Shown: positions 37,672 through 45,458 of the stretch, piece after piece
Numbering within the stretch: position 1 is the first letter of the stretch
Layout: each line of letters begins with the position of its first letter
Assembly: GCF_030068445.1 (NCBI RefSeq)
Contig: NZ_JAQPOK010000071.1
Location: forward strand, 1-45,483
Direction: 5' to 3'
Origin: Roseofilum halophilum BLCC-M91
GTDB lineage: Bacteria; Cyanobacteriota; Cyanobacteriia; Cyanobacteriales; Desertifilaceae
DNA length: 45,483 nt
Notes under the pieces: model-generated
Told to the model about the DNA's origin: nothing
Database searches by the model: none
What the model saw: only the letters and a program-made list of their open reading frames with translations
Translations under genes and position numbers: made by a program

Positions 37672-37902
37672 ATGAAATTACAAGAACTAATTGATTCAAT
37701 TGAACAATTGTCCATTGAAGATCAAGATTATTTATTCGACTTAATCCACAAGCGAAGAATTGAACAGCGACGCTTAGAAATTGCTGTTAATGCTGAAACG
37801 CTGAAGCAAGAATTTCAGCAAGGAACTGCTAAACGAGGAACAGTGGACGATCTGATTGCTGATTTACTTGAGGATGATGATGGAGATTGTCTGGAGCAAT
37901 AG
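37672..37902 (+). CDS. Antitoxin of a RelE-type toxin-antitoxin pair
   Basis: The 76-residue acidic protein (MKLQELIDSIEQLSIEDQDYLFDLIHKRR at the start, GTVDDLIADLLEDDDG at the end) has the size and composition of an antitoxin partnered with a RelE/ParE-fold toxin. It overlaps the toxin gene, which starts inside its last codons. The N-terminal region would bind DNA as a dimer and repress the operon, while the acidic C-terminus would wrap around the basic toxin. Assignment depends mainly on its partner. Confidence 0.7.
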   Translation: MKLQELIDSIEQLSIEDQDYLFDLIHKRRIEQRRLEIAVNAETLKQEFQQGTAKRGTVDDLIADLLEDDDGDCLEQ

Positions 37903-38161
37903 CTTTAAGAGAGCATTTAAGAAATTGGCCAAGAAACAACCTCAATTACAAGCTAAGGCGATCGAGGTATTAAAAATTCTCGCGATCGATCCCTTTACTC
38001 CTTCATTAAAATCTCATAAGTTAACGGGGAGCTTAAACGGATTATGGTCGTGTTCTGTTGCTTATGATTGCCGGATTATTTTTTCTTTTTTTGATGAAGA
38101 AGATACAGATGAGGAAGTAATTCTTCTAATTGATATTGGCAGTCATGACGAGGTTTATTAA
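37880..38161 (+). CDS. RelE/StbE-family mRNA interferase toxin
   Basis: The 93-residue basic protein (start ATG 37880, chosen because TGAGG lies six bases upstream; ATGs at 37874 and 37877 are alternatives) reads MEIVWSNSFKRAFKKLAKKQ, KSHKLTGSLNGLWSCSVAYDCRIIFSF and ends LIDIGSHDEVY. The pattern SHKL-x-G-x-L-x-G-x-W-S-x-x-x-x-x-x-x-R-I-I-F and the C-terminal I-G-S-H-D-E-V-Y are those of YafQ/RelE toxins, which cleave mRNA at the ribosome. Its antitoxin gene overlaps by 23 bp. Confidence 0.85.
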   Translation: MEIVWSNSFKRAFKKLAKKQPQLQAKAIEVLKILAIDPFTPSLKSHKLTGSLNGLWSCSVAYDCRIIFSFFDEEDTDEEVILLIDIGSHDEVY

Positions 38162-38437: not shown

Positions 38438-38609
38438 AGCAGGCCTAAATGAGTTGTGCAATGGGAAATGCCCTCTCCCTAAATCCCTCTCCCACTCCGA
38501 GAGGGACTCTCCCCCTTCTCCCTTCGACTTCGCTCAGGGCAGCGCCTGTGGGAGAAGGGGGTAGGGGGATGAGGGGCCACCGTTACATAACTCATTTAGG
38601 CTTGCTATA
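38435..38609. mobile_element. 175-bp palindromic MITE overlapping the STAND gene end
   Basis: TATAGCAGGCCTAAATGAGTT (38435-38455) and AACTCATTTAGGCTTGCTATA (38589-38609) pair with one mismatch; inside are further complementary stretches (CTCCCCCTTCTCCC with GGGAGAAGGGGG, CTCGGAGTGGGAGAGGG). It shares the bases 38435-38437 with the previous element, so one may have inserted at the edge of the other. Its right end encodes the last residues and the stop codon of the STAND gene. Confidence 0.6.
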
Positions 38610-39956
38610 TAGGCAATGAGCATAGGATGCAATCGTCGGTTGTAGTGTAAATTGGGCGACTTTTTCATGGGTATGTTTCTCAATAATTCCTCGCTTGAGT
38701 AAAGAGTGTATCGCTTGCAAGAATTCAGCATCAGACAAGGCTAACTCTGTGGGTTTGTGGAAAATATCCGGGGTTTCGTGACTGGCTAACCACTGGACTA
38801 CCGTCATTTCTGAGGGAGATAAGCGTTGATAATAGTCTTGCAGGATGGGTTCTAGGTCGCCCAGGAAGGGGTTAGGATAGGAGAGGAAGCGATCGCAGCT
38901 ACCGTTAAAGAACTCCTGGATCGTAGAGGCAACAATATTGAGCCAAGAAGGATTACCTCCGTAACGTTGAATCAATTCTTCCCATCGCTCCTCATCCCTG
39001 AGTTGGTGGTTGCTCAAGATTTCCCGTGCTGCTGCGCCTAAACTTCCCAGTTGCAAGCTGAGACAATGACTGTTTTCGCGCTCTAAGGTGGCGATTTCTG
39101 TGGGTTTTTCCCAGGAGAGGAGGAGGAAGCAACTGCCGTGGTGCGATCGCCCCATTTCTCTTAACAGCTTACCATAACTTTCCTGTCCCGGTAAATACGT
39201 CCCAGCCAACTCACCCGGAGCGAACAGTTCTTGGAAGTCATCGAGAATAATCAGGGAACGAGAAGAGCGCAAATAGTTGATGAGCTTTGCCGATTTCTGG
39301 CTTTCATCTTTGCCCATCAATTCTATCATATCAGTTTCCAGAGATTGGCGCTCTAGGCTATTCGTGCAGTTGCGCCAGATCGCATAGTCAAATCGATCTT
39401 TAACTGCTTCTACCAATGCTCTCGCAAGAGTCGTTTTACCGATGCGAGGTAAGCCCCAAATTGTGACAATCTTTATTTTTTCATCCAATACCCACTGTTT
39501 CAGAGTCGTTAGTTCACTTCTGCGATTATTTAGAGGATAGTATTCTGGCGCTTCTGCGAGATCGTGGCGCTGTTGTTGATTGATAGAGGGAGAATGTGAG
39601 CGTTCTTTTGTCAGTTCTCCAGAGGGCCAATTCTTTTCACAGATATTAATGTGATTTTGATTAAAACTTTTCTCAAAATTATTGATTCTAGAATGAGCAA
39701 TAGAATAGCATTCCAATGTTGCGCGAAAATTTTTCTTATTAACCTTTTCCCCTAACTCTTCCGAAATCAACTTCCATAAACTTCCCGCCACTATTTTCAC
39801 ATTCGCTTCGCCACAGTGATAATCTTCCGCAATCTCCTTATATTTCTGATGCTTCCAAACCCCAGCTAACACCGCTCGTTGCAGACTACTTAAGCTTGTG
39901 CCTGTTTGAGCCAACATCAACTCATCGGCCCATGCCAGGATTGCTTCCACATCCAT
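38592..39956 (-). CDS. STAND NTPase (NB-ARC type), C-terminus cut by MITE
   Basis: The 454-residue protein starts with a helix-turn-helix-like N-terminal domain (about residues 5-75; AVLAGVWKHQKYKEIAEDYHCGEANVK), as in cyanobacterial vWA-MoxR-associated or NB-ARC signal proteins. The NB-ARC follows: Walker A IWGLPRIGKTTLARALVEA (about 164-182), Walker B RSLIILDDFQELF (about 231-243), and a winged-helix part near 390-445 (FTLQPTIASYAH). The family usually goes on with WD40 or other repeats, but here the last ten residues (AHCLYSKPK) come from the MITE end at 38589-38609. The protein therefore probably lacks its sensor part. It faces the small-protein/GTPase pair divergently. Confidence 0.7.
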   Translation of the reverse strand: MDVEAILAWADELMLAQTGTSLSSLQRAVLAGVWKHQKYKEIAEDYHCGEANVKIVAGSLWKLISEELGEKVNKKNFRATLECYSIAHSRINNFEKSFNQNHINICEKNWPSGELTKERSHSPSINQQQRHDLAEAPEYYPLNNRRSELTTLKQWVLDEKIKIVTIWGLPRIGKTTLARALVEAVKDRFDYAIWRNCTNSLERQSLETDMIELMGKDESQKSAKLINYLRSSRSLIILDDFQELFAPGELAGTYLPGQESYGKLLREMGRSHHGSCFLLLSWEKPTEIATLERENSHCLSLQLGSLGAAAREILSNHQLRDEERWEELIQRYGGNPSWLNIVASTIQEFFNGSCDRFLSYPNPFLGDLEPILQDYYQRLSPSEMTVVQWLASHETPDIFHKPTELALSDAEFLQAIHSLLKRGIIEKHTHEKVAQFTLQPTIASYAHCLYSKPK

Positions 39957-39991
39957 TAGTTATACCGATACCACTCCGTCGCTATCCTATC

Positions 39992-40038
39992 ACTTTTTTA
40001 ACCTATTACAACTTTTTTCACCAAATTTCAACTTTTTT
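39992..40038. promoter_or_regulatory. Three direct repeats ACTTTTTT, 19-20 bp apart
   Basis: ACTTTTTT occurs at 39992-39999, 40011-40018 and 40031-40038, starting 36 bp upstream of the STAND start and facing the small-protein gene on the other side. The period of about two helical turns suggests cooperative binding of a repressor or activator. The rest of the 249-bp divergent gap shows nothing clear. Confidence 0.45.
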
Positions 40039-40205
40039 GCTTTACAAATCATTAAAATGTTGTTCAAAGTTATAGACCAAATTTGTCTTTTTGTCAGTAG
40101 GCCAATCAAAACCAGTAACCTATACTGTAAAGAATGATTCTATAATTCAAGGGAGTCTGCAACTGCAACTCGTAGTCTTCAACAACAGCAGGAGCTAAAT
40201 GAGCC

Positions 40206-40478
40206 ATGAGTGAAAGCCTTGCCATTAATACGTCAATGACCTATGAAGCCAAGTTGGTCGGTAAAAAGGGCGATGATGATTTTCCCTGTAACGGAAAAAT
40301 ATCGAAAATCGAATTAAACAAAACTGTCAGTGCAATTTCCATAACTAAACTCGATCCTGGTGTGGGTCGCGGAGACGCTAAATATACTCAGAAAAATTCA
40401 TCGACTGTCGGAGTTCACTACTGGCTCGACCTAGGCACAAAGTTGACTTATAACTTAAAAGTCTGGGTCAGCGATTAG
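40206..40478 (+). CDS. Small beta-rich protein of unknown function
   Basis: The 90-residue protein (ATG 40206, with AGGAG 12 bases upstream) has no signal peptide or membrane segment. It alternates hydrophobic and polar residues in a beta-strand pattern (TYEAKLVGK, VSAISITKLDPG, VGVHYWLDLGTKLTYNLKVWVSD). I do not recognise the family. The next gene, a GTPase, starts 89 bp downstream on the same strand, so the two are likely an operon; the small protein might be a ligand, sensor or partner of that GTPase. Confidence 0.5.
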   Translation: MSESLAINTSMTYEAKLVGKKGDDDFPCNGKISKIELNKTVSAISITKLDPGVGRGDAKYTQKNSSTVGVHYWLDLGTKLTYNLKVWVSD

Positions 40479-40567
40479 TAACGAAACATTGACTGGGCAA
40501 GGGAGATCGCGTTTTCTCTTGCCAAAAGTAACCAGATAGATCGGATAGATATAAATAGGAGGCTGAC

Positions 40568-41398
40568 ATGGATTTTGAAGGGTTTGAGATTCATAAGATT
40601 TTCTCAGAACTTATTAAGGCAAAGAATCGAGGATTTACGTTTCTTTTAGTGGGTAGAACAGGAGTAGGAAAGTCTAGTATTGATTTACGGAAAGTAGATT
40701 GTTTGTGGTTTGTTACTCCTCTTCATGAAACAAGAGTACGTTCTGATGAAAAACGAGCGATTCGGCTTATTAGTGAATCATTCGGGTCTGGGATTTGGGG
40801 TTTATCTATTATTGTATTTACATTTGCAGGTTTTGTTGAACGCAATGATTTCCCAGAAAAGCTCAGAAAAAGAACTGAGTTAATTCGAGCAGAAATTGCT
40901 CAGTATATTCGAGAAGAAGTGGCTGAACTAATTCCTTCAGTAGCAGTTGATAATAAGAGCAAAACCACTCCTGATGGTGAATTCTGGTTAGGAGAATTGT
41001 ATACAACAGTGTTTAAACGGATGAAGATGGATGCAATGTTGCCTTACCTGATGGTTACTATCGAGCGATTCAAACCTACTCCACGCAAATCTCCTGGAGG
41101 CACGATTCATGCTATGGGAGTCGATTCTGGGAAACCCGCTCAAAACACTAATGTAAATAATGAATCTGTTGAAAGTCCTCCCACAGGGTCAGATATTCCT
41201 CTGAACTCAAAGCAGGAACAAGCTATTGGAGATCGAATTGCAACAGCATTGAATATAGTAGGGACAGGAGCTGAGGTTCTATCTAAAGTAATAGATGCTG
41301 TAAAGAAAGCTGCCCCTTACGTGAAGGAGTTCGGAAGTCAAGTTGTTAATGTTGGCACAAAAATTATTTCTTTTGTGAGTAGATTGCGGGGGGGATAA
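40568..41398 (+). CDS. AIG1/GIMAP-like GTPase missing the switch region
   Basis: The 276-residue protein has a G1/Walker A LLVGRTGVGKSS (about residues 27-38). Directly after it comes IDLRKVDCLWFVTPLHETRVRSDEKR, which in related bacterial GTPases follows the G3 box (D-T-P-G) and about 60 residues of switch I/II. Here switch I, the G2 Thr and the D-x-P-G are all absent. IIVFTFAGFVERND stands where the G4 region should be. A Ser/Pro/Asn linker (about 190-220) leads to an amphipathic C-terminal helix pair (VLSKVIDAVKKAAPYVKEFGSQVV) that may bind membrane. The frame stays open, so an in-frame deletion is the simplest reading. GTP hydrolysis is doubtful. Confidence 0.6.
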   Translation: MDFEGFEIHKIFSELIKAKNRGFTFLLVGRTGVGKSSIDLRKVDCLWFVTPLHETRVRSDEKRAIRLISESFGSGIWGLSIIVFTFAGFVERNDFPEKLRKRTELIRAEIAQYIREEVAELIPSVAVDNKSKTTPDGEFWLGELYTTVFKRMKMDAMLPYLMVTIERFKPTPRKSPGGTIHAMGVDSGKPAQNTNVNNESVESPPTGSDIPLNSKQEQAIGDRIATALNIVGTGAEVLSKVIDAVKKAAPYVKEFGSQVVNVGTKIISFVSRLRGG

Positions 41399-41453
41399 AT
41401 AAAGATCGTGCGCTCTGCTATGATTATAAGGAAAGTCATAAATTAACCCTCTA

Positions 41454-41681
41454 ATGTCTCAGCTAATGACCTTTGAAGAAATGAAGCAGCATTATCAAGG
41501 GGAATGGTTACTGATTGCCTATAAAGACCTGGATGACCAGATGGAAGTCATAGAAGGGGAAGTGTTGGCTCGTTCTCCTAACCAGTCTGACATCTATGAA
41601 ATGTTGGCTTCTATTCCTGAGCAACCCCTAGCTATTGAATATGTCGGGCAAATTCCTGAAGATGTGGCCTTTATTTTATGA
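41454..41681 (+). CDS. Small conserved cyanobacterial protein
   Basis: The 75-residue acidic protein (MTFEEMKQHYQGEWLLIAYKDLDD, then GEVLARSPNQSDIYEMLAS and LAIEYVGQIPEDVAFIL) resembles small proteins found in many cyanobacteria, often in front of a second small gene in toxin-antitoxin or aspartic-protease-like pairs. No such partner is intact here. The function is unknown. It begins 55 bp after the GTPase gene. Confidence 0.6.
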   Translation: MSQLMTFEEMKQHYQGEWLLIAYKDLDDQMEVIEGEVLARSPNQSDIYEMLASIPEQPLAIEYVGQIPEDVAFIL

Positions 41682-41748
41682 GTTCTAGTAGAATCTTAAG
41701 TCAGCTTTGTTACAATAACTGGTAAAGCCGTTGATTGGGAGCGTGAAC

Positions 41749-41826: not shown

Positions 41827-42123
41827 ATGGATGTATATTTCGTACTCAATGGTATTACCTTTGTTTGGAACCAGGAAAAAGCAGCACTGAATCCTAGAAA
41901 GCATGATGGTATTACTTTTGAGCAAGCGGCTGAAGTGTTTTTTGATCCATTTCTAGTTGTCATTGATGCCAGCCGTAATGATGAAACAAGAGATGCTGTC
42001 ATTGGGTTAGATACTCGATGGAATCTATTATTTGTCGTTCATATCGAACGTGAGGATAATACAATTCGGATGATTTCAGCACGTAAAGCGACTCGTCAGG
42101 AGCGAGAAATATATGAAAATTGA
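41827..42123 (+). CDS. brnT: BrnT-family ribonuclease toxin
   Basis: The 98-residue protein matches BrnT: FVWNQEKAALNPRKHDGITFEQAAEVFFDP (with the W-x-x-x-K-x-x-x-N-x-x-K-H motif), then RDAVIGLDTRWNLLFVVHIERED and IRMISARKATRQEREIYE at the C-terminus. These are RelE-fold RNases that stop translation. The C-terminal E-R-E-x-Y is the usual ending. The antitoxin starts within the last 11 bp. Confidence 0.9.
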   Translation: MDVYFVLNGITFVWNQEKAALNPRKHDGITFEQAAEVFFDPFLVVIDASRNDETRDAVIGLDTRWNLLFVVHIEREDNTIRMISARKATRQEREIYEN

Positions 42124-42394
42124 GCAATTAAAAAAACGGTTAGACAAAAATCGTCCCATGACTAGCGTAACCCTGAATATTCCTGAAGATGTGATAGAAG
42201 ACTTAACGCGAATCGCGCCATTATTGGGATTTTCTGATTATCAATCCCTGATGCGTGCTTATATCGGACAGGGATTACGTCAAGACTTAGAGCGCTTCGA
42301 GAATGACATTCATGATGAAATGGATGACGATCTGCGACCTGAGTATGATTTGTCCCAGTTGACTGGAGGAGTTAAAGGCAAGTATGTAGATTGA
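42113..42394 (+). CDS. BrnA-like antitoxin
   Basis: The 93-residue protein overlaps brnT by 11 bp. A basic start (MKIEQLKKRLDKNRPMTSVTLNIPEDVIEDL) resembles a ribbon-helix-helix repressor, followed by SDYQSLMRAYIGQGLRQDLERF and an acidic end DLRPEYDLSQLTGGVKGKYV. As in BrnTA operons, the antitoxin follows the toxin and would repress the shared promoter. Exact subfamily uncertain. Confidence 0.75.
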   Translation: MKIEQLKKRLDKNRPMTSVTLNIPEDVIEDLTRIAPLLGFSDYQSLMRAYIGQGLRQDLERFENDIHDEMDDDLRPEYDLSQLTGGVKGKYVD

Positions 42395-45113: not shown

Positions 45114-45194
45114 TTTAGTATTTTAGATTTTAGGAGTGCGTAGGGTAGCGTGTCTAAACAAGTAATGCGAGCATCTTGCTCGCTGCCTTCTTCT

Positions 45195-45341
45195 AGCGAG
45201 TAAGATGCTCGCACTACCGAGTAAGATGCTCGCACTAGCGAGTAAGATGCTCGCACTAGCGAGTAAGATGCTCGCACTACCGAGCAAGATGCTCGCACTA
45301 GCGAGCAAGATGCTCGCACTAGCGAGCAAGATGCTCGCACT
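45195..45341. repeat. Tandem array of seven 21-bp palindromic units
   Basis: Seven exact-length units starting at 45195, 45216, 45237, 45258, 45279, 45300 and 45321 read A[CG]CGAG[CT]AAGATGCTCGCACT. Each holds a 7-bp stem around AGA. An inverted single unit (45166-45184) precedes it. All units are near identical and no unique spacers exist, so it is not CRISPR. The palindrome is the same as at 17667-17910 and 31028. The 370 bp after the last gene contain only this array and a CCCATTA heptamer run at 45459-45483. Confidence 0.85.
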
Positions 45342-45458
45342 TTACAGCGTTTTTCGATGTTATGAGGTACAGTAATCGAAATGTTCCTTGAGAGTGTTGT
45401 CCCATGAAAAGCCTGAAGAATGGGCACGCATAGCGTAAAAAATGGTTTTCCCTTCTGC

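Follow-up and report, generated by a model that had tools for sequence, protein, structure and literature searches.

What does a short, NLR-like STAND NTPase do when it stands back to back with the genes of a small beta-rich protein and a GTPase? The question is raised by a locus of Roseofilum halophilum BLCC-M91 on contig NZ_JAQPOK010000071.1, whose 45,483 nucleotides make up the window analysed here. A STAND gene (38592..39956, minus strand, 454 residues) is divergent from the gene of a 90-residue beta-sandwich protein (40206..40478, plus strand), with 249 bp between the two start codons. The latter gene is followed by an AIG1-family GTPase (40568..41398, plus strand, 276 residues), which is either a remnant or a switchless form. 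A sequence-only reading of this locus had described the same three components, the small protein belonging to no known family and the GTPase lacking its switches, and had placed them among toxin-antitoxin genes; open reading frames (ORFs), a six-strand model of the small protein, the NB-ARC match of the STAND (E = 1.1e-11) and the alignment of the GTPase bear this description out. We propose, with a probability of about 0.62, that the STAND is a local transcription switch dedicated to the divergent operon. It is better read as a divergent regulator than as a co-effector.

The surroundings of STAND relatives were examined in 40 stretches, picked mainly by score and short reading frame, with L080, L097 and L098 taken for other genes. 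The short class to which the window STAND belongs comprises proteins of ~450 residues with a helix-turn-helix (HTH)-like N-terminus, NB-ARC and a winged helix, and without sensor repeats. A discovery list of 44 sources gave 39 STAND genes with a complete N-terminus and an upstream neighbour, a test list of 20, fetched after discovery, gave 19, and 13 long forms gave 10. The nearest upstream neighbour was divergent for 31/39 genes of the discovery list and 18/19 of the test list, compared to 72/206 other genes at the same loci (Fisher p = 2.8e-7 for each list). The distance to the divergent neighbour fell within 138-319 bp in 28 of the 31 discovery cases and within 153-332 bp in 17 of the 18 test cases. 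Among four further loci, taken from cyanobacterial records with the nearest STANDs, the nearest neighbour was divergent in three (L130, L131 and L133; in L133, a 68-aa ORF precedes a 415-aa gene).

Divergent cargo was present at 52 of the 58 assessed loci and fell into 38 blastp groups. Pfam assigned a family at E<=1e-5 to 25 of 40 cargo proteins, two of them below the curated cut-off, and the remaining 15/40 had no family. The matches included argininosuccinate-synthase-like plus radical SAM proteins, ricin-type lectin, GUN4, Ntox44, dynamin, vWA and protein kinase, carbamoyltransferase, MvdD-type pre-ATP-grasp, DO-GTPase plus WD40 (the DO-GTPase at L101), PP2C, a DNA methylase with an Mrr-like domain, AAA, phospholipase A2, DUF559, NfeD and PspA-like proteins. 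Among the GTPase cargoes were dynamin-, AIG1-, DUF697- and DO-GTPases. The cargo is often toxin- or defence-like, though not all of it consists of conflict proteins. By these comparisons, the STAND is the constant part of the locus class and the cargo is exchangeable. Two loci resemble peptide-modification clusters: a 76-aa Cys-rich ORF accompanies a radical SAM protein at L096:3690-5379, and a 92-aa ORF accompanies an MvdD-type protein at L087:1959-3324.

The region shared by the two divergent promoters often carries repeats in 10-bp phase. In the window, three ACTTTTTT units start at 39992, 40011 and 40031 (array 39992..40038, no strand), at spacings of 19 and 20 bp. The 160 nucleotides upstream of short STANDs showed a mean lag-10 self-similarity of 2.92 compared to 0.18 in shuffles for the discovery list, and 5.63 compared to 0.14 for the test list. 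A lag-10 match occurred in 54% of the 39 discovery regions and 74% of the 19 test regions, but in only 18% of 119 clean control regions and in 25% of the 57 that form the divergent part of this control. The clean regions replaced a first control of 155 upstream regions, which held cargo promoters. Lag-10 matches clustered 30-60 nucleotides from the STAND start. A TATAAT-like hexamer facing the STAND was found 26-33 nucleotides from its start in 39/58 cases, with a mean score of 7.9 compared to 6.8 in the uncleaned 155-region control. For the STAND promoter of the window, a candidate -10 element, placed as in most relatives, is TAGGAT on the minus strand (39984..39989). The units themselves vary by locus, as in CCGACATTTT, CCTACTTTTT and CTGAACTTTC, and L130, L131 and L133 show repeats at lag 10 or 19-20; L132, the fourth of the further loci, has neither such repeats nor a divergent neighbour. 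In L132 (Prochloron, L132:1065-1294), 7-bp tandem repeats lie upstream of the STAND, and words resembling an array follow at a greater distance, as though the array had been moved by an insertion.

If the array is an operator, its reach appears to be local. The three-unit array had a single occurrence in each of two genomes, the own one and G001, both times at the STAND locus, and was not found in four other species of the genus; a regulon beyond the neighbouring operon was rejected on the single occurrence per genome in these two. Array units recurred nearer the cargo above shuffles in 20/37 loci (86 matches compared to 18.8 expected, with overlapping matches counted and mononucleotide shuffles used). 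The candidate cargo promoter of the window (40098..40126, plus strand), its elements paired by eye, combines a poor -35 (TAGGCC, 40098-40103), a 17-bp spacer and a -10 (TATACT, 40121-40126). The poor -35 would fit an activator-dependent promoter.

The NB-ARC match of the window STAND is above the Pfam cut-off, NB-ARC was matched by 40/40 relatives at E<=0.01, and G173, K174 and D239 are invariant in the alignment, in keeping with an NB-ARC P-loop and Walker B. In the structural model, residues 128-454 align with NLR cores, best with those of resistosome and apoptosome NLRs; a linker of low confidence (residues 90-126) separates this core from an N-terminal domain of five helices (residues 1-88; 39693..39956, minus strand). 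No sensor repeats were found in the window STAND, which stops at the winged helix and matches no Pfam repeat family. The N-terminal domain is HTH-like, with a GerE match (E = 0.003) below the Pfam cut-off, and among 40 relatives GerE was matched by eight and Sigma70_r4 by six at E<=0.01. According to PMC11119718, sigma70-like proteins of cyanobacteria can carry NB-ARC as an accessory domain, and these proteins may include relatives of the short STAND family. The dN/dS ratio (nonsynonymous to synonymous substitution rates) of the STAND is 0.25-0.28 in two pairs. We believe that the STAND probably binds DNA.

A relation between the repeats and the N-terminal domain was found across 40 loci. When NB-ARC was corrected for, repeat sequence correlated with the N-terminal domain (partial Mantel r = 0.32, p = 0.0005); when the N-terminal domain was corrected for, it did not correlate with NB-ARC (r = 0.03, p = 0.33). 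The plain correlation between repeat and N-terminal domain was only 0.19 among pairs with NB-ARC identity under 0.5. At L102, the methylase cargo is shared with L106 and L108-L110, yet the N-terminal domain is nearest to those of L107, L114 and L112, and the array resembles, by eye, the arrays of these same three loci.

These results bear on a protein-level conflict system, in which the STAND would sense an invader and act directly on the divergent products; its helical N-terminal domain would be an adaptor that does not bind DNA, divergence would serve only for co-expression, and the repeats would bind some other regulator. Such a mode of action has precedent, as NLRs and bacterial STAND defence proteins mostly act via proteins or fused effectors according to the available text of PMC8195603 and PMC13236601, and the best structural matches of the STAND core, the resistosome and apoptosome NLRs, are in keeping with it. 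The 38 cargo groups are, however, too diverse for one protein interface, and the repeats near the STAND start follow its N-terminal domain and not cargo or NB-ARC. We consider a protein-level system doubtful, though it deserves attention.

Several observations weigh against the transcription switch as well. The HTH assignment is weak: the N-terminal profile gave HTH regulators among solved chains only at E = 0.18-0.84, and its best match (E = 0.0013) was a chain named lysozyme. The short form has no recognised sensor domain. At the threshold used, 46% of the discovery set had no lag-10 match, and in the window there were 0 matches of array units nearer the cargo. The long WD40-type forms were intermediate, with a divergent neighbour in 5/10 and a lag-10 match in 4/10 (p = 0.11 compared to control). 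To some extent the N-terminal domain also correlated with the region adjoining the array (r = 0.17, p = 0.003), so part of the signal between repeats and N-terminal domain reflects shared ancestry. The loci are also partly non-independent, some being close orthologues, and the gene calls are crude (ORFs of at least 60 aa).

With these points taken into account, the transcription switch that we favour might operate as follows. Some trigger would cause the STAND to bind ATP and oligomerise, and the HTH domains of the oligomer would then occupy the phased repeats in a row. The array-bound STAND would recruit RNA polymerase to the cargo promoter and also control its own promoter. In the window, the cargo would be the small protein plus a GTPase slot, which sister species fill with an intact DUF697 GTPase, and the slot may deliver a membrane effect, though this is a guess. 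Because the kinds of cargo suggest conflict effectors, the output may plausibly be immune or self-killing. Extended to the whole class, the proposal is that a large, minimal NLR-like family of cyanobacteria serves as gene-by-gene switches, each an oligomer on a one-helical-turn operator with a private, often exchanged effector operon, its DNA-binding domain co-evolving with the operator; we would put this wider claim at even odds.

The contents of the GTPase slot were compared with intact relatives. The window GTPase matched only positions 84-143 of the 212 in the AIG1 profile, compared to 4-206 for the intact relative L014. The P-loop GRTGVGKSS (G1, ~40652-40678) is present and aligned with the relatives, and directly after it the protein runs straight into a segment that in relatives comes behind the G3 region. 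Roughly 60 alignment columns, including switch I and DTPG, are thus missing compared to intact relatives from two other genera. The window protein therefore has the P-loop and second half of the AIG1 domain in common with AIG1/GIMAP GTPases, and differs from them in lacking the switch I/DTPG segment and in its C-terminal tail, which is unlike the tails of two intact relatives (its amphipathic character was judged by eye). Across 59 genomes the tail matched nothing convincingly (best outside match E = 0.0076), and the idea that it is a shared targeting module was rejected on this result. The window GTPase is probably unable to cycle and has probably decayed. Contig C53 of the own genome carries at its edge a 60-bp AIG1 remnant (L018:135-194) with 93% identity to the window, adjoining a gene found next to the STAND locus in G005 C21; the remnant's four differences from the window are all synonymous when read by eye.

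In G001 and G005 C21, the small protein has on one side a divergent STAND, with 91% and 81% identity, respectively, to that of the window, and on the other an intact 455-aa MMR_HSR1+DUF697 GTPase. The sequence-only reading was staked on the small protein recurring beside GTPases in other genomes, and it does so in both. The G001 locus is syntenic with the window: one flank holds ABC-type and acyltransferase-like genes, and the opposite flank a methyltransferase-like gene (names by eye). DNA similarity between the two covers the STAND, the promoter region and the small protein, ends at the small protein's stop codon and resumes ~1.2 kb on, from which we infer that the GTPase slot is exchanged between these loci. 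The exchanged segment of the window (40478..41704, no strand) also contains a 75-aa ORF of no family (41454..41681, plus strand). In G010, which belongs to another genus, an intact AIG1 GTPase stands directly opposite a STAND 36% identical to that of the window, without the small protein. The DUF697 GTPases appear to change fast, as in conflict proteins: their dN/dS was 0.88 in the one pair compared (L012:3548-4912 and L013:5412-6776), and that of the small-protein neighbours was 0.17. Changes between the G001 and G005 GTPases were slightly enriched in residues 54-125 (18/68, p = 0.017), a region picked post hoc.

The small protein is a real gene, because it is present in 3/59 genomes searched (own included, all of one genus) and its dN/dS is 0.15-0.18 in three pairs. 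At the E-values used, Pfam, PADLOC and NCBIfam gave no family for it, and its six-strand model has a predicted local distance difference test (pLDDT) score of 88.9. A search for a wider family among 388 genomes of the class returned one, the own genome (an even draw that may omit sister species), and two peptide patterns run against the GTDB collection returned no relatives. The protein is possibly lectin-like, and among known groups the H-type lectins (SLL-2, discoidin, Helix agglutinin) may be the closest to it; glycan binding is a guess. A further copy, on G005 C64, adjoins a 252-aa protein without a Pfam family at cut-off, on a contig without a STAND match. DNA similarity there covers exactly the small ORF, and no homologue of the window promoter region was found upstream of this copy. 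The copy and the 252-aa protein are framed by direct repeats of 450 bp (98% identical) of the start of a Dus-like gene (L011:3604-5872), with a truncated copy of that gene on one side and a full copy on the other; the repeats suggest a mobile insertion.

The STAND, the small protein and the AIG1 GTPase might still have formed a fixed three-gene defence system, since all three adjoin in the window and an AIG1 GTPase is also adjacent to a STAND in G010. No other genome examined had all three, and the small protein's partner elsewhere was the DUF697 GTPase (G001 and G005) or the 252-aa protein (G005 C64). This exchange of partners largely refutes the fixed system, which we regard as highly improbable. 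The sequence-only reading had suggested an undescribed, partly decayed defence locus: its linkage is retained in the STAND, small protein and GTPase order of G001 and G005, with a GTPase of another family, and the decay in the central loss from the AIG1 GTPase, and its three genes as a set unit are not.

That loss also raises the prospect that the locus is a decaying island, with the leftovers of mobile cassettes near toxin-antitoxin pairs and no present function as a unit. The AIG1 remnant on C53 would agree with this, as would the in-frame stops in the G010 C60 relatives and the shortness of the G029 match. The dN/dS values of the small protein and the STAND look constrained, however, and the arrangement recurs in other genera, which makes a mere relic improbable. 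Toxin-antitoxin-like pairs occur on both sides of the locus, a YafQ/ParE-like pair at 37672-38161 and BrnT with a CopG-like partner at 41827-42394. Further along the window, short tandem repeats at 45123-45375 give rise to repetitive ORFs on both strands.

If the transcription switch is correct, any gene that diverges from a short STAND and its 10-bp array becomes a candidate toxin, defence protein or bioactive-peptide operon, and a common, unexplained cyanobacterial gene family becomes an effector marker. NLR-type receptors would be tied to transcriptional control of immunity in bacteria, and immune-type receptors would control polymorphic weapons at the promoter and not by direct activation of effector proteins. 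The model also makes a simple prediction at the level of DNA binding.

STAND activators are already known, as are AIG1 GTPases and conflict systems with variable effectors. A divergent STAND switch with exchangeable cargo was not described in the open-access literature searched, which comprised titles, the starts of abstracts and passages, with subscription journals mostly outside. Antiviral STANDs and bacterial NLRs (bNACHT, CARD-NLR, Avs) have the NB-ARC/NLR core in common with the window STAND, which differs in having neither a fused or adjacent constant effector nor sensor repeats; its best PADLOC match was at E = 0.0005 (17 bits), and the small protein and GTPase matched 0 PADLOC families. 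The variable-effector NTP-dependent conflict systems (Kaur et al. 2020, PMC7159879; Burroughs et al. 2021, PMC8195603) are, in the text available, alike in pairing a constant component with variable effectors in multicellular prokaryotes, and AIG-type GTPases and DO-GTPases are among their components, as here. They differ in their MoxR-vWA, DO-GTPase/GAP1 or EACC1 cores and protein-level action, and the available parts of both papers do not describe a divergent STAND with a phased operator; Pfam annotation, which covered eight window proteins, found no MoxR-vWA, DO-GTPase or EACC1 core among them. Close in architecture to the proposed switch are the STAND activators (AfsR/SARP of Streptomyces, MalT, GutR), which from the available accounts have in common with it a STAND core with a DNA-binding domain (putative and HTH-like here) and direct repeats near the promoter that lie one or two helical turns apart. 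AfsR binds direct repeats 11 or 22 bp apart that overlap the -35, as given in the accessible text of PMC10936776. In the class described here, the HTH-like domain is N-terminal and weakly GerE- or sigma region 4-like, the repeats are spaced at 10 or 20 bp, sensor repeats are absent, and the cargo changes by locus; AfsR and MalT are set apart on these features and not by a sequence-by-sequence comparison.
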